A stretch of 32,386 nt of DNA from Butyrivibrio sp. (GTDB lineage Bacteria; Bacillota; Clostridia; Lachnospirales; Lachnospiraceae): assembly GCF_017433805.1 (NCBI RefSeq), contig NZ_JAFRGN010000051.1:1-32386 (forward strand), written 5' to 3'. The notes beneath the pieces were generated by a model. The model worked only from the letters and a program-made list of their open reading frames with translations. It searched no databases and was not told where the DNA came from. A program made the position numbers and the translations under genes. Below are positions 4,531-27,278 of the stretch, piece after piece. How positions within the stretch are numbered: position 1 is the stretch's first letter; every line of letters starts with the position of its first letter.

Positions 4531-4551
4531 TATGCCCAAAACGTATGGCCC

Positions 4552-5249
4552 CGCTGCCGCCATTTACATCATAACCCCTTCCCCCGCCCCGCGCCACAGG
4601 GCCTCTGCTCGTTCATAAAGATTTTTTCGTCGCCTCCAGTTTCGGATATTCATGGCCTTCGGAAAGCGGCTAAGAATTCTACGGGGCAAAACTCGCACCC
4701 TTAGCAGTCGTAGCCGATCCATCCAATTTTCCACGGCGAGTCTTAGATGGCAAATGCGATTTTCTAATGTTTCCATGGCAGCTTTTCCTGCGCATGCGAA
4801 ACGATGTCTGAAGCAGGACGGAGAAAACTGTATATTTTTGAAAAAGCCATACGGTGCGTAGCACCTATTAAAAAGGAGAAATCAACTTCTTCAAGCTAGC
4901 TTGGAAGATTGATTTCTCCTTTTATATACGCTCGCTTTGCGAGCTATGGCATTTTCATTTATTTATCTCAATTCCGTCCTGCGAGTTGCAGTTGAGCATG
5001 CGTATTAAAAGAAAAGCTGCGGAAACATCTGAGAAAATCTGCATTTGTCAGTGACGAGCAAGGGGAATTGGTGGGAGGTGAAAGGCTGCCTTGGGTGCTC
5101 AGACATGTTGCCCCGAAGCAGAATTCTTATTGCCGCTTCCCAAAGGCTCATGAATATATCCTCACTTACACAGACGAAAAAATCTTCATTGAACATCGCC
5201 ATGCCCTGTGGTGTGGGGCGGGAGGCCTGAGACGAGAATGGTGGTAGCG
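4552..5249. repeat. Large palindromic non-coding element, copy A
   Basis: About 700 bp forming one long imperfect inverted repeat centred on AAGCTAGCTT (4893-4902). Outermost ends pair (CGCTGCCGCCATT at 4552-4564 with AATGGTGGTAGCG at 5237-5249). Next come GC-rich blocks (4583-4602 with 5203-5222, 18 of 20), then AGATTTTTTCGTC (4619-4631 with 5173-5185), then AGAATTCT (GAATTC at 4674 and 5121) and GCAGGACGGA-type blocks. The innermost part is a perfect 15-bp stem (4871-4885 with 4909-4923). Each arm also has a side hairpin: GGTGC-GTA-GCACC (4853-4865) and GCTCGC-TTT-GCGAGC (4930-4944). Between the conserved blocks the two arms (type I left, type II right) are clearly diverged. Short frames inside are not preserved between the arms. 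The right end stops 1 bp before the traX stop codon. A second copy lies at 24343-25063, inverted. Confidence 0.9.
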
Positions 5250-5250
5250 A

Positions 5251-6060
5251 TTAGCCCCAGATGAGGCATCTGATGATGTAGATGAGGGTCAGGTGGACTG
5301 GGTAGAATACGTAGAAGAAGTATTTGAGGTTTCCGAGGTTACGGCCTCTTTTGTGGCTGTAGAGAGCCATGAGGATGAAGCCTGGGAAAGCCCAATATTC
5401 TATGCCGAGCTGGGAGATGAAGAAGTAGCCAGCAAGGATACGTATGAATTCATATTTACGAAGTAAGTAGAAGATGAGGATGAGAACTACGCCCCAAACG
5501 TCATAGTCTGAATTGATCTTGTAAGCTATGCCACAGCCCAGTAATGCGATTACTATATAGGCAAGCCATGATATCACAATGTGAAGGTTCTTTTCCTTGC
5601 AGAAGCTATATGCTACATCCATTCCCCAGATTACCAGAAGACCTAACAGAAGAGTGAAATAAACATTGCACTGATCCATCAAGAGATAACTGTTGGCCTC
5701 AAGTGCTTCTACGATGTTAATGTTAAAGATCTCTTCTTCGGAAAAGAATATAAGATCAAAAGGAATTTCTGAGATAATACCAAAAAGAAGCAGACTAAGA
5801 GCGTATCTTAGCCTGCTTCTGGTGTGCATGAAGCCTTCTACGAGAAGAAAACAGAATATAGGAAAAGCTGTTCTGCCTACTCCTCTCAGAAACATATAAA
5901 TAAAATTAAGCTGGTCAATTGTGAGATCGCCAGTATACAGTCCACTACGAACTACAGGAAACATGATACCTGCTGTAATGTGATCAATCAGCATAGTTAT
6001 GCAAGCAATTATTTTAAGAGTGTTGCCGTTGATTTTCTGAAATCTGCTTAATTCTGACAT
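5251..6060 (-). CDS. TraX family membrane protein
   Basis: A 269-residue polytopic inner-membrane protein. The N-terminus (NGNTLKIIACITMLIDHITAG) is the TraX family signature, with an Asp-His pair near the end of helix 1. About seven to eight hydrophobic helices follow, with basic loops. TraX of plasmid F acetylates the N-terminus of pilin. Chromosomal Firmicute homologues are distant members of the acyltransferase-like family with unproven substrates, so acetylation is only inferred. The ATG at 6060 has a weak ribosome site (GTGAG). The gene lies 45 nt downstream of the DUF3048 lipoprotein gene in the same direction and may be read from its promoter. The stop codon (TAA, minus strand) abuts palindromic element A. 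Confidence 0.85.
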   Translation of the reverse strand: MSELSRFQKINGNTLKIIACITMLIDHITAGIMFPVVRSGLYTGDLTIDQLNFIYMFLRGVGRTAFPIFCFLLVEGFMHTRSRLRYALSLLLFGIISEIPFDLIFFSEEEIFNINIVEALEANSYLLMDQCNVYFTLLLGLLVIWGMDVAYSFCKEKNLHIVISWLAYIVIALLGCGIAYKINSDYDVWGVVLILIFYLLRKYEFIRILAGYFFISQLGIEYWAFPGFILMALYSHKRGRNLGNLKYFFYVFYPVHLTLIYIIRCLIWG

Positions 6061-23676: not shown

Positions 23677-24282
23677 ATGTTCAGAAAAATCTATTCTAGA
23701 GTAATGTCAGTAGCAATTGTTGGGGCTATGGCCATGGCTGTGTGCACAGGCTGTGGAAGTAAAGTCGATGAAACAGTAGAGATCAATTTAGAGGAAGTTC
23801 CTCATGCTGATACTGTAGACGTGGCTTTTGATGATGACCTTGCAGTAGAATCAACAGATGAAATCTACTACGATGCAAATGGTTGGAGCCTTAGGTATGA
23901 TCCAAATGTTATAGCAGTAAACGCTGGTGGCCCAATGTCAACATTCGTTTACACAGGCGACTGTGCTGGAACCTGCATGATGACATCCACATACGATGTC
24001 GGTATGGATGCTGAGACAGCAGCAGAGGAGCTCGCAAAGAGCTGGGGCGAAGAGGCTAAGGTTACAGAGTGTATCTTCCCTGGAACAGCAGATGTAAGTG
24101 GCTACTACGTATACTTACCACCAATGGAAGGTGGCTTAGGACTTGTCCAGGATGCTTTCGTAAGAGACTACATGGACGGCTACCTTACACTTGAGTTCAC
24201 AATCCACAACTGTGGTGATGACTCCATCGACATCCCTGTATCAGATGCCTTCGCTTACATGGTGGACACACTCCAGTTCTAA
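23677..24282 (+). CDS. Small lipoprotein of unknown function
   Basis: A 201-residue protein I do not recognise. The N-terminus is MFRKIYSR, then a hydrophobic segment with repeated Ala/Met (VMSVAIVGAMAMAVC) and lipobox CTGC, giving a lipidated Cys at about residue 26. The mature part is strongly acidic and begins with a linker (about 30-60). A compact domain follows, with YYDANGWSLRYDPNVIAV, VYTGDCAGTCMM, AAEELAKSWGEEAKVTEC and GYLTLEFTIHNCGDDS. The several Cys residues could form disulfides outside the membrane. The ribosome site GGAGG lies about 11 nt before the ATG. It is monocistronic between two terminators and directly precedes palindromic element B, as the exported protein at 3915 precedes element A. 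Confidence 0.78.
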   Translation: MFRKIYSRVMSVAIVGAMAMAVCTGCGSKVDETVEINLEEVPHADTVDVAFDDDLAVESTDEIYYDANGWSLRYDPNVIAVNAGGPMSTFVYTGDCAGTCMMTSTYDVGMDAETAAEELAKSWGEEAKVTECIFPGTADVSGYYVYLPPMEGGLGLVQDAFVRDYMDGYLTLEFTIHNCGDDSIDIPVSDAFAYMVDTLQF

Positions 24283-24316
24283 ATAAACATCCCAAAAACT
24301 TCCAAAAACTCCCAAA

Positions 24317-24347
24317 GAAGTCTACCACCCGGTAGACTTCTATTTTT
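24317..24347 (+). terminator. Rho-independent terminator after the small lipoprotein gene
   Basis: Perfect 10-bp stem GAAGTCTACC (24317-24326) with GGTAGACTTC (24331-24340), loop ACCC, followed by TATTTTTT. The T run also forms the left edge of palindromic element B. Confidence 0.9.
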
Positions 24348-25063
24348 TACGCACCAATCCCACCCCCGCCTTCTACAACCTCCTTCCCCGCCCACACCTC
24401 AGGACAAGGCGATGTTCAATGAAGATTTTTTCGTCTGTGTAAGTGAGGTTTATTCATGAGCCTTCAGAAGGCGGCAATAAGAATTCTGTCACGGGTCAAC
24501 ATGTCTGAGCATCCAAGGCAGCCTTTCGCCTCCCACCAATTCCCCTTGCTCGTCACTGACAAATGCAGATTTTCTCAGATGTTTCCGCAGCTTTTCTTTT
24601 AATACGCATGCTCAACTGCAACTCGCAGGACGGAATCAAGGTTAAAAAGAAAATGCCATAGCTCGCAAAGCGAGCGCTTATAAAAATGAGAAATCAATCT
24701 TCCAAGCTAGCTTGAAGGAGTTGATTTCTCATTTTTAATAGGTGCTACGCACCGTATGGCATTTTCTATGATATATTTTTGCTCCGTCCTGCTTCAGACA
24801 TCGTTTCGCATGCGCGGGAAAAGCTGCCATGGAAACATTAGAAAAGCGCATTTGCCATCTAAGACTCGCCGTGGAAAATTGGATGGATCGGCTACGGCTG
24901 TTGTGGGTGCGAGTTTTGACCCGTAGAATTCTTAGCCGCTTTCCGAAGGCCATGAATATCCGAAACTGGAGGCGACGAAAAAATCTTTATGAACGAGCAA
25001 AGTTCCTGGGGTGAGGGCGGGGAGGAGCGCGGGACTACGAATGGTGGGAGTTGGTGCAAAAAA
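24343..25063. repeat. Large palindromic non-coding element, copy B (inverted relative to copy A)
   Basis: About 720 bp with the same architecture as copy A but in the opposite orientation: type II arm on the left, type I arm on the right, centre AAGCTAGCTT at 24704-24713. Ends pair through a T run plus GCACCAATCCCA on the left and TGGGAGTTGGTGC plus an A run on the right. The central stem is 24682-24697 with 24721-24736 (16 bp, perfect). The side hairpins are GCTCGC-AAA-GCGAGC (24661-24675) and GGTGC-TAC-GCACC (24741-24753). GAATTC occurs in each arm (24481, 24926). By eye the type I arms of A and B differ at only a handful of positions over more than 200 nt, and the type II arms are slightly less similar. 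The unique differences include paired, compensating changes. No intact coding frame spans both arms. Confidence 0.9.
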
Positions 25064-25170
25064 GCGTTGTCGGGGCTTGGGAAGATGGGGTATTGTAGAT
25101 ATATGACGACTTTTTGTTGGACAGGTAGTGATAATCTAATTATGAATTAATATAGAAGAGAATTGCGATT

Positions 25171-26442
25171 ATGTTTAATTTTATGGAAGATCCAAATGCA
25201 CAAACTCTTATGGCGCTTTATATATCACTGCTGATGCAGCTAGTTGGTGTGGCGCTTGCGGTTCTGGTTGATCCGTATATTAAGAGAGAAAATAGGATAA
25301 GAATATATACCATTGTTGTCATAGTTACGTACTTGCTCTTTGAACCTTATGTTACGGAGACGTACGGCCCGGCTCTGTTTGGAAGCCACGGTGTTTTGTG
25401 GTACACCTTCCATTCCAGCTTTAGCTATATTATGAGAACGGTGGTGCTATATCTTTTCATAGGCCTTAGCGGTAATACATGGGGCAAGAATATACTCCGT
25501 GCGATACTGGTGATAAATGCATTCTTTTGCTGCAGCGCATTTTTTGTCCCATGGGTATTCGTGTTCAATGAAAACTATGGATGGCACAGAGGACCGCTTG
25601 GTTTTATACCTTTTGTAGCAAGCTTTATATTGGTTTTGTGGCTTGTTGTGGGCTCGGTGATCCGATTCAGAGGTATTAAGAGAAGAGAAAGTAGTATTCC
25701 AGTTATTATTTCAATATTTGTTGTCGGCGCAGTATTAGGGGATGTTGAGATGGGTTTTAGCCCAATGGTATCTTTTCTGAATGTTGCAATGACCGGAAGT
25801 ACCGTATTTTTCTACATCTGGATGCACCTTCAGTTTGTAAGAGAGCATGAGAAAGCAATAAGAGCCGAGCAGAGAATCAAGATCATGATGTCTCAGATTC
25901 AGCCACACTTTCTTTTCAATGCCCTGTCTACTATTCAGGCTCTTACAGAGACTGACCCTGAGAGAGCATCCAAGGTTATTGAGGAGTTTGCTACCTATCT
26001 CAGGCAGAACATCAGCTCTCTTAATCAGGATTCCATGATTCCTGTGAGTAAAGAGATTGAGCATACCAAGACGTATTCGGATATCGAGGAGGTTCGCTTC
26101 CCATCTATCAAGATCGAATATGATATTGAGGATGATGAATTCCTGATTCCACCGCTTACAATTCAGCCTATGGTTGAGAACGCCATCCGTCACGGCGTCA
26201 GAGGCAAAAAACATGGTTGGGTATGCGTCAATATCTATCGCGAGGGCGATATGCATGTTATATCGATCCGCGACAATGGTAAGGGCTTTGATGTTAACCA
26301 GATGATTGAAGATACCAAAAATGGTGATCACATCGGAATCAAAAACGTAAGAGACAGGATAAAAGAGATGACGGGAGGAACTTTCTCCATAGAAAGTGTG
26401 ATTGGAGAGGGTACATCCATTACGATCAGAATTCCAGCGTGA
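25171..26442 (+). CDS. LytS-type sensor histidine kinase
   Basis: A 423-residue membrane sensor kinase. About seven hydrophobic helices fill residues 10-220, a 7TM-like sensor region. A short coiled linker (VREHEKAIRAEQRIKIMM) leads to the His_kinase domain with phospho-acceptor His246 in QPHFLFNALSTIQAL. The ATPase domain has the N-box PMVENAIRHG (Asn337), G1 box DNGKGF (368-373) and G2 box IGIKNVRDRI. This is the LytS/YpdA class, which usually signals to a co-encoded regulator. Here the response regulator starts 14 nt downstream. The ribosome site is weak (AGAG). Its promoter would lie in 25064-25170, just beyond element B, where a GATAAT (25130-25135) is the best -10 candidate but lacks a good -35. 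The signal is unknown. Confidence 0.9.
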   Translation: MFNFMEDPNAQTLMALYISLLMQLVGVALAVLVDPYIKRENRIRIYTIVVIVTYLLFEPYVTETYGPALFGSHGVLWYTFHSSFSYIMRTVVLYLFIGLSGNTWGKNILRAILVINAFFCCSAFFVPWVFVFNENYGWHRGPLGFIPFVASFILVLWLVVGSVIRFRGIKRRESSIPVIISIFVVGAVLGDVEMGFSPMVSFLNVAMTGSTVFFYIWMHLQFVREHEKAIRAEQRIKIMMSQIQPHFLFNALSTIQALTETDPERASKVIEEFATYLRQNISSLNQDSMIPVSKEIEHTKTYSDIEEVRFPSIKIEYDIEDDEFLIPPLTIQPMVENAIRHGVRGKKHGWVCVNIYREGDMHVISIRDNGKGFDVNQMIEDTKNGDHIGIKNVRDRIKEMTGGTFSIESVIGEGTSITIRIPA

Positions 26443-26456
26443 TTTAGAGGAGTAGT

Positions 26457-27278
26457 ATGAACGCTATATGTGTAGATGATGAGGAGCTGATTCTTGCAAG
26501 AACAGTTTCCCTTGTAAAAAAAACTGAGAAATTTGATAAGGTAGAATCCTTTTCCGAGCCATCAGAGGCGATAGCTTATCTTGATAAAACAGCTGTTGAT
26601 CTGGCTCTTTTGGATATTGATATGCCACAGATGGGCGGCCTTGAACTGGCTAATAATCTAAAGAAAAAGAATCCGGATATAAAGATCATTTTTTTGACTG
26701 GTTATTCTGAGTACGCGGTAGATGCCTACGCAATGCATGCTACTGGATATCTGCTCAAACCAGTTGGCTTTGATAAGCTCCAGTCTGAGATTGAATATGC
26801 GCTTTCATCCGGTATTCAGGCAAGTGCAGCCTCAGCAGAAGCCAGCATCCAGAGTAGTCCTAAGGTTAAGGTAGAGACCTTTGGATATTTCAATATTCTG
26901 GTTGGTGACAGACTTGTAGTATTTAAGCGTAATAAGGCAAAAGAGCTTATTGCGTGCCTTGTGGATCGTCGTGGACAGTATGTTTCAAGAAAAGATGTCT
27001 TCTACATTCTGTGGGAAGATGATGATTACGACAGAGCTAAGCAGAAATATCTTGATACCATAATTAGAAGCCTTAAGGATACGCTTGAGGAATATGGTAT
27101 CTCAGAAATCTTTGAATCAGAGAGTGGTATGATGCGTGTTGTACCTGAGAAATTTGATTGTGATCTGTATCGTTTCCTTGATAATGATGAGGCTGCGATA
27201 GCAAGTTTCAGAGGAGAGTATATGAGCTCATACTCCTGGGCAAGCGAGACAGAGGGCTATCTTACTGATAGAGAATAA
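26457..27278 (+). CDS. Response regulator with SARP-like winged-helix output
   Basis: A 273-residue regulator. The receiver domain (1-118) has the acidic pocket Asp7-Asp8, phospho-acceptor Asp53 in LLDIDMPQMGG, Thr81 in FLTGYSEYA and Lys101 in LLKPVG. A Ser/Ala-rich linker (120-133) follows, then a winged-helix output (about 135-225) beginning VETFGYFNILVGDRLVVFKRNKAKELIACLVDRR and containing DVFYILWEDDDYDRAKQKYLDTIIRSLK. The tail is VPEKFDCDLYRFL and GEYMSSYSWA. This SARP/OmpR-like output replaces the LytTR domain more common with LytS kinases. The ribosome site GAGGAG lies 6 nt before the ATG. A long hairpin terminator follows at 27289. Target promoters are unknown; the small gene at 27422 is a candidate by position only. 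Confidence 0.9.
   Translation: MNAICVDDEELILARTVSLVKKTEKFDKVESFSEPSEAIAYLDKTAVDLALLDIDMPQMGGLELANNLKKKNPDIKIIFLTGYSEYAVDAYAMHATGYLLKPVGFDKLQSEIEYALSSGIQASAASAEASIQSSPKVKVETFGYFNILVGDRLVVFKRNKAKELIACLVDRRGQYVSRKDVFYILWEDDDYDRAKQKYLDTIIRSLKDTLEEYGISEIFESESGMMRVVPEKFDCDLYRFLDNDEAAIASFRGEYMSSYSWASETEGYLTDRE

Follow-up and report, generated by a model that had tools for sequence, protein, structure and literature searches.

The most plausible explanation of the two long quasi-palindromes of the window (copies A and B) is a non-coding foldback DNA element that is, or was at one time, mobile. Its arms would be rewritten by copying from a hairpin template or by recombination with each other, and selection would keep certain boxes, including six near-invariant mispairs. 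We give this reading a probability of about 0.6. The window is the whole stretch of DNA analyzed, 32,386 nucleotides, and represents one whole contig of a Butyrivibrio genome; a third copy (C) is present in the same genome. A and B are members of a family of quasi-palindromes, mostly 600-900 bp long, that is dispersed through intergenic regions of Butyrivibrio, a genus of rumen bacteria.

Architecture and distribution of the element

Within the window, copies A and B run in opposite directions and share five ungapped blocks (I1-I5) that are 92-93% complementary. The features recognized in them are collected in Table 1. Predicted RNA folds are very stable, with -327.7 kcal/mol (z -16.0) for A (4570-5245) and -321.7 kcal/mol (z -15.8) for B (24370-25050).

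Table 1. Positions of the quasi-palindromes and of their parts in the window.
Feature	Position	Strand	Remarks
Copy A of the giant quasi-palindrome	4551..5249	-	Read on -, the orientation of B; self-complementary span 698 nt; shares I1-I5 with B
Copy B of the giant quasi-palindrome	24343..25063	+	Self-complementary span 721 nt
Tip module of B, GCAGGACGG to CCGTCCTGC	24625..24792	+	Model R1, 143.8 bits (tip in training set)
Tip module of A	4813..4982	-	Model R1, 155.5 bits (tip in training set)
Tip-bounding stem, left half, GAAAATGCCAT	24649..24659		Read by eye; pairs with 24756-24766
Tip-bounding stem, right half, ATGGCATTTTC	24756..24766		Read by eye
Small hairpin 1, GCTCGC-AAA-GCGAGC	24661..24675		On the opposite side, reverse-complemented, in copy C (scored A vs C)
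Small hairpin 2, GGTGC-TAC-GCACC	24741..24753		On the opposite side in copy C
Central hairpin, CAAGCTAGCTTG apex	24681..24737		Variable sequence, pairing retained; helix 8 of the 26-copy alignment
Conserved box, left arm	24547..24590		Opposite 24824-24869, with retained mispairs; alignment A1
Conserved box, right arm	24824..24869		Alignment A1
Terminator-like site of the upstream gene (hairpin and T-run)	24316..24348	+	At the border of copy B or just beyond it

Read by eye from the outside in, the element begins with ends that resemble ACCATTCACAG in several copies, followed by an outer arm whose sequence varies between copies and which pairs near-perfectly within many of them. Inward of this arm, a T-rich box lies opposite an A-rich box, and then come the middle arms with their conserved boxes, a short stem (GCAGGRCGG/CCGYCCTGC) found in most copies, and a further stem that bounds the tip. 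The tip consists of two small hairpins on either side of a central hairpin, which has A-rich and T-rich flanks and an apex that is usually CAAGC..GCTTG-like. In one copy of Butyrivibrio sp. INlla14 (L039), an inserted hairpin-containing sequence splits the right arm and the outer arm resumes beyond it. The usual three-hairpin tip is absent from the center, as if lost, in L050, L109 and L115.

The self-palindrome score was at least 190 in 51 of the 60 fetched loci, against 27-72 in shuffled sequences (one per locus). Of these 51 loci, 46 together with A and B make up the set of 48 oriented copies; L029, L114, L116, L117 and L122 were omitted as partial or not orientable. The self-complementary span is 601-907 bp in 41 oriented copies and 336-566 bp in the other seven.

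A pattern scan of genomes matched 26 stretches, 24 of them in Butyrivibrio, including Butyrivibrio sp. INlla14, B. proteoclasticus P6B7, Butyrivibrio sp. VCB2006 and B. hungatei DSM 14810. The two remaining matches, in an Acidobacteriia MAG and in Herbaspirillum, have self-palindrome scores of 46 and 106 and were dismissed as chance. DNA similarity to copy C found the element in 22 of 79 Butyrivibrio genomes. With the tip model R1, at least 59 of the 79 gave matches (35 candidates scored per genome), a count in which several genomes match by construction because their copies belong to the training set. The highest numbers of tip matches, at least 34, 30 and 29 (genomes G014, G361 and G360), correspond to about 15 to 17 copies, since most places are counted once per strand. 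Contigs end inside or near the element in L023, L029, L031, L046 and L108, as expected for an assembly-breaking repeat, so draft genomes undercount the copies.

Across the wider family, at least 24 of 397 genomes match the tip model, two of which are Butyrivibrio (seven candidates scored per genome). Among the candidates scored, the only strong matches outside the genus are in G304 (best E 1.6e-16) and G325 (3.6e-12). In G304, the palindromes at four of the loci read measure 369-586 bp; at a fifth, L211, the best palindrome is centered elsewhere. The two G325 loci that were read measure 143 and 147 bp. The remaining matches outside the genus are weak (E from 3e-7 upward), and the four that were read span 98-346 bp. 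Shorter palindromes with three hairpins or a central hairpin occur at L213, L214, L215, L216 and L218 in other genera, some of them with A- and T-runs resembling two-way terminators. A phage origin was rejected: five IMG/VR pattern matches reach self-palindrome scores of only 50-94, compared with at least 190 in the 51 element loci, and blastn of copy B returned nothing from phage or plasmid collections.

Paired changes, retained mispairs and inversions

The preliminary description had pointed to three base pairs at which both arms change together between A and B, and the letters are as claimed: G4875-C4919 of the central stem in A is T-A at 24731/24687 in B (read in the frame of A), G4686-C5111 of the long arm is T-A at 24919/24496, and G4601-C5204 of the outer arm is A-T at 25004/24404. 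Its remark that the arms otherwise differ widely needs qualification, since 75% (245/326) of the self-aligned positions in A and 77% (258/333) in B are Watson-Crick pairs. Of the pairs in the predicted fold of A, 238 can be traced into B; both members differ in 10 of them and a single member in 15, where 1.3 coincident changes are expected under independence. The central pair G4875-C4919 is not among the five pairs counted with this pairing map. Between A and B, 35 of 476 paired sites changed and 27 of 182 unpaired sites, i.e., paired sites change at half the unpaired rate, a pattern that selection would also give. Even with two copies, the co-change effect is small but real. Two copies alone are weak evidence, and it is the alignment of 26 copies that settles the presence of compensating changes.

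This alignment (A1) covers 26 of the 48 oriented copies and 294 column pairs. In it, 74.5% of the cells pair, compared with 66.2% in shuffles, and both-sided changes amount to 780 cells, compared with 358 in shuffles and 212-384 when each partner is displaced by one, two or three columns. In 500 shuffles, the observed value was never reached on any of five measures; the result is somewhat favored by the fact that the pairing was derived from the same sequences. The covariation is far above both the shuffled and the slid controls. In the central hairpin (helix 8), 92.1% of the cells are paired and 19 of 30 pairs show a both-sided change. A further 94 comparisons within nine groups of related copies gave 1038 both-sided changes between Watson-Crick pairs and 181 others, next to 809 one-sided changes that made or broke a Watson-Crick pair and 100 others; these comparisons are non-independent, and poorly alignable outer arms inflate the figure of 1038. 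At column pair 118/571, which is the long-arm pair mentioned above, 25 of 26 copies have U-A and only copy A has G-C, so both sides changed on the lineage of A itself.

Pairing is not uniformly maintained. Eighteen column pairs are almost never paired in the 26 copies; for six of them, between 24 and 26 copies show an identical pair of letters. The boxes of the left and right arms hold conserved non-pairs at columns 174/517, 175/516, 179/509 and 180/508. Near-invariant mispairs stand a few bases from co-changed pairs, e.g., A·G at 130/561 and A·C at 246/447, both present in 26 of 26 copies. Wholesale conversion of one arm thus fails to explain the data, and conversion tracts would have to be about ten bases or less, unless double substitutions under selection are involved. 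The comparisons between copies and species, which contain no pedigree, did not catch a conversion event.

In addition to single base pairs, larger parts of the element differ between copies by inversion. The tip enclosed by the 24649-24659/24756-24766 stem is inverted in other copies. Tips were compared in 50 copies, of which six served as references and ten were unscored because the apex was missed (B, L036, L038, L040, L087, L089, L090, L096, L233 and L245, including the weak 'SWAP' labels of L036 and L038), leaving 34 comparisons. In eight of these, from five genomes (L042; L039 and L239; L088 and L231; L093; L097 and L098), the small hairpins are swapped and reverse-complemented relative to the reference copy. 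The weakest case is L231, which belongs to another subfamily, and L097 and L098 score 0.63 vs 0.47 and 0.43. The apex is clearly inverted as well in L093 (0.94 vs 0.65), and not in L042, L088, L097 or L098. Tips also differ by inversion between copies of one genome.

The element as a whole can be inverted too. L035 and L041 occupy one locus, with 98% identity in the flanks and the element in opposite orientation. The outermost, non-palindromic ends align uninverted, which favors inversion in place over two separate insertions. Orientation is also opposite at L086/L095 (flanks 75% and 87% identical). It is the same at L244/L247, where both flanks are collinear (68% and 79%), so inversion is not universal. 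Only one flank matches at L096/L110. L038 and L042 are collinear in their right flank and inverted relative to each other in the left one, placing the element at the breakpoint of a chromosomal inversion.

Template switching is described as making the arms of a repeat alike and inverting the spacer, in the available text of two studies (PMC8604942, PMC8794818). In the element, the two arms would pair when the DNA becomes single-stranded or is extruded, and a paired arm could then serve as template or recombination partner for the other, through template switching or arm-arm recombination. A new base copied from arm to arm would appear as a compensating change, and the same copying or recombination would invert whatever stands between paired stretches. 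Template switching accounts for the inversions and the co-changes, for G·T and A·C mispairs being about equally frequent (see below), and for stems, outer and central, that pair near-perfectly while their sequence varies. The persisting mispairs are left unexplained by it, and we take them as selection on conserved boxes of the arms. Such selection, acting on certain boxes and on the near-invariant mispairs, would prevent the middle arms from becoming perfect, and the boxes are perhaps maintained by a protein or enzyme that recognizes the folded strand, which is a guess. The preliminary description had left a choice between selection on a folded RNA or DNA and hairpin-templated correction. Templating on hairpin DNA gains support from the co-changes, the inverted tips and the element inverted in place between its 98%-identical flanks, and some DNA-level selection probably also acts, given the six letter-invariant mispairs; selection on an RNA strand is unsupported, given the mispair counts described below.

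Selection on the folded DNA alone, in which the hairpin is the substrate of a structure-reading recombinase or transposase (cf. IntI-attC) and compensation becomes fixed because broken hairpins fail, is a possible but rather unlikely alternative. It would explain the 18 conserved non-pairs with their six letter-invariant members, the slower change of paired sites between A and B, and the symmetric mispairs that DNA predicts. By eye, the three-hairpin tip is moreover retained across clades with differing stem sequences. On the other hand, the outer arms of many copies are wholly unlike each other and still near-perfect within each copy, spacer inversions are a footprint of copying or recombination and not of selection, and no enzyme is known.

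Strand symmetry of mispairs and gene context

RNA tolerates G·U pairs and not A·C, and on DNA the two are mirror images of each other. We compared their frequencies with a strand-neutral self-alignment of the 48 copies, which gave 471 G·T and 507 A·C mispairs (p=0.26, conserved mispairs included). When only A1 pairs that are at least half Watson-Crick were considered, which avoids the conserved mispairs, there were 209 G·T and 194 A·C cells, in 90 and 77 columns (p=0.35). One-sided changes in the 94 comparisons produced 234 G·T and 221 A·C. The RNase P RNA of the genus, used as a control, gave 82 G·T vs 2 A·C in 25 of the 30 fetched loci (L266, L269, L270, L275 and L277 were omitted).

The choice of pairing method matters for this test. 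RNAalifold inherently favors G·T, and for the element (Watson-Crick fraction at least 0.6) it gave 86 vs 45 on the + strand and 78 vs 52 on the - strand; we therefore rely on the strand-neutral pairing. The RNase P control used RNAalifold pairs, and its antisense fold gave 34 vs 16, so the method inflates G·T, yet not to the extent of 82 vs 2. Other mispair classes in the 48 copies are balanced except for A·A over T·T (362 vs 261, p=6e-5), the sole strand asymmetry found there, in a chosen orientation and with a p-value overstated by the counting of related copies. The near-equality of G·T and A·C indicates a constraint unlike that of a single-stranded RNA made from one strand.

RNA made from both strands, e.g., of a two-way terminator, would also give symmetric mispairs, and we consider it improbable that the element works between convergent genes as an insulator or as a terminator of transcription in both directions. 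Its placement fits such a role in part. Both neighbors were called for 45 of the 48 copies, which include some orthologous pairs, and these lie between convergent (20), tandem (21) or divergent (4) genes. Convergent placement was thus more frequent than among ordinary gene pairs (21/166; p=9e-6, with differing and in both cases crude calling methods), also when one method was used throughout (6/12 vs 21/166, p=0.003). Divergent sites showed no significant depletion (p=0.79). The A-rich and T-rich flanks of the central hairpin would also suit a terminator. However, the genes preceding A and B have their own terminator-like hairpins just before the element (B was scanned). The one next to B (Table 1) is the sole terminator-like site in 24250-25180, where shuffles average 1.2, so the scan found none in the arms or tip of B. 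Furthermore, 25 of the 45 copies are outside convergent gaps, and such gaps may simply be safe places for insertion.

A large structured RNA, transcribed from one strand and selected for its fold, is very unlikely in spite of the stable predicted folds (z about -16) and the strong covariation. Of eight helices, only helix 4 leans to G·T at a level below 0.05 (9 vs 1 cells, p=0.02, uncorrected), and helix 2 has 15 G·T vs 6 A·C (p=0.08). A general G·T excess like that of RNase P is absent. Rfam searches at gathering scores, run on the element of the window and on six loci from relatives, gave no match, and the only further hits were sub-threshold. Two promoter-like sites were found against a shuffle average of 1.2.

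An alignment artefact, or a few inherited ancestral paired changes counted repeatedly, is refuted for the main claim: by eye, copies look clustered by genome and outer arms are hard to align, yet the slid-partner control preserves relatedness and still drops to 212-384 cells, and changes private to a single copy exist (118/571).

Sites of the element and comparison with known systems

At the site of copy A, 105 bp separate the aligned flanks in G360 and 98 bp in G365, compared with 753 and 761 bp in the window, and no trace of the element was seen in the aligned gap. By eye, no target-site duplication was seen, the flanks of the empty sites being too diverged. Mobility is suggested by the dispersal of the family and by this one locus without the element, where the two other species may have lost it. 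Copy A has a TraX-domain protein beside it (window 5251-6060, - strand), and copy B is followed by a histidine kinase and response regulator pair (window 25171-27278, + strand). Loss of SbcD was rejected as a general reason for the survival of the palindromes, since sbcD scored above the cut-off in 37 of 79 genomes, including the element-bearing G000, G014, G360 and G365. Two other element-bearing genomes (G031 and G361) gave no sbcD match.

The terminal repeat of AAV is a long palindrome with a pair of small hairpins at its tip, and these swap their order (flip/flop). The similarity to the tip of the element is an analogy only, as the element is chromosomal and no virus or Rep gene was seen. 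As far as the available text of the sources goes, the closest process is template-switch mutation at quasi-palindromes, which makes arms alike, inverts the spacer and yields compensation without RNA selection (PMC8604942, PMC8794818); the cases described there are short repeats and RNA genes, whereas the elements of the present family are dispersed, mostly 600-900 bp long, and inverted at two or more levels. Prokaryotic MITEs, in the text available, share dispersed intergenic copies, inverted-repeat ends and the lack of a transposase gene (PMC10969869), the latter in line with our check of A and B, neither of which contains an open reading frame of at least 80 amino acids. Unlike these MITEs, which are typically <500 bp, the element is longer and palindromic over its full length, with no direct repeats seen and no known parent transposase. 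Integron attC sites, as the accessible part of the source describes them, likewise retain structure while sequence varies and keep unpaired bases inside a hairpin (PMC2727003), as the element does with 18 non-pairs inside covarying stems of 26 copies. The element is far larger than attC, and no recombinase, integrase or cassettes were seen among the nine window proteins scanned. Insertion sequences of Wolbachia invert in place by recombination between their own terminal inverted repeats, according to the text at hand (PMC3004938); in our family, tip and apex invert separately too. Membership of REP/BIME was rejected, since REPs are given as 20-40 bp palindromes in the portion of the source available (PMC3733652), far below the spans of all 48 oriented copies. 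An inverted-repeat survey of bacterial genomes lists Butyrivibrio hungatei with the lowest inverted-repeat number, and its available text makes no mention of long imperfect inverted repeats (PMC10434271). The main text of the B316 genome paper does not contain 'palindrom' (PMC2914790). A description of the family was not found in the literature searched, and a paper outside that search could exist.

The pieces, foldback repeats and template switching, are already known. We know of no precedent for their combination at this scale. More speculatively, and unlikely as a whole, the family could be mobile DNA of a new class, in which a folded strand would be the inherited unit. This strand, a hairpin of 600-900 nt whose tip has three arms and whose mispairs are fixed, would be read by a putative recombinase and would invert at three nested levels (element, tip and apex). 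Self-templated renewal of the arms would then let structure be inherited more faithfully than sequence, and the shorter tip relatives in other genera would be the ancestral form.

Compensating changes are commonly read as proof of a functional RNA. In the element, a large natural example, they seem to originate at the DNA level, and the comparison of G·T with A·C is a simple diagnostic to separate the two origins, with the RNA control behaving as expected. Strains that carry about 15 copies would allow arm correction and tip inversion to be measured directly.
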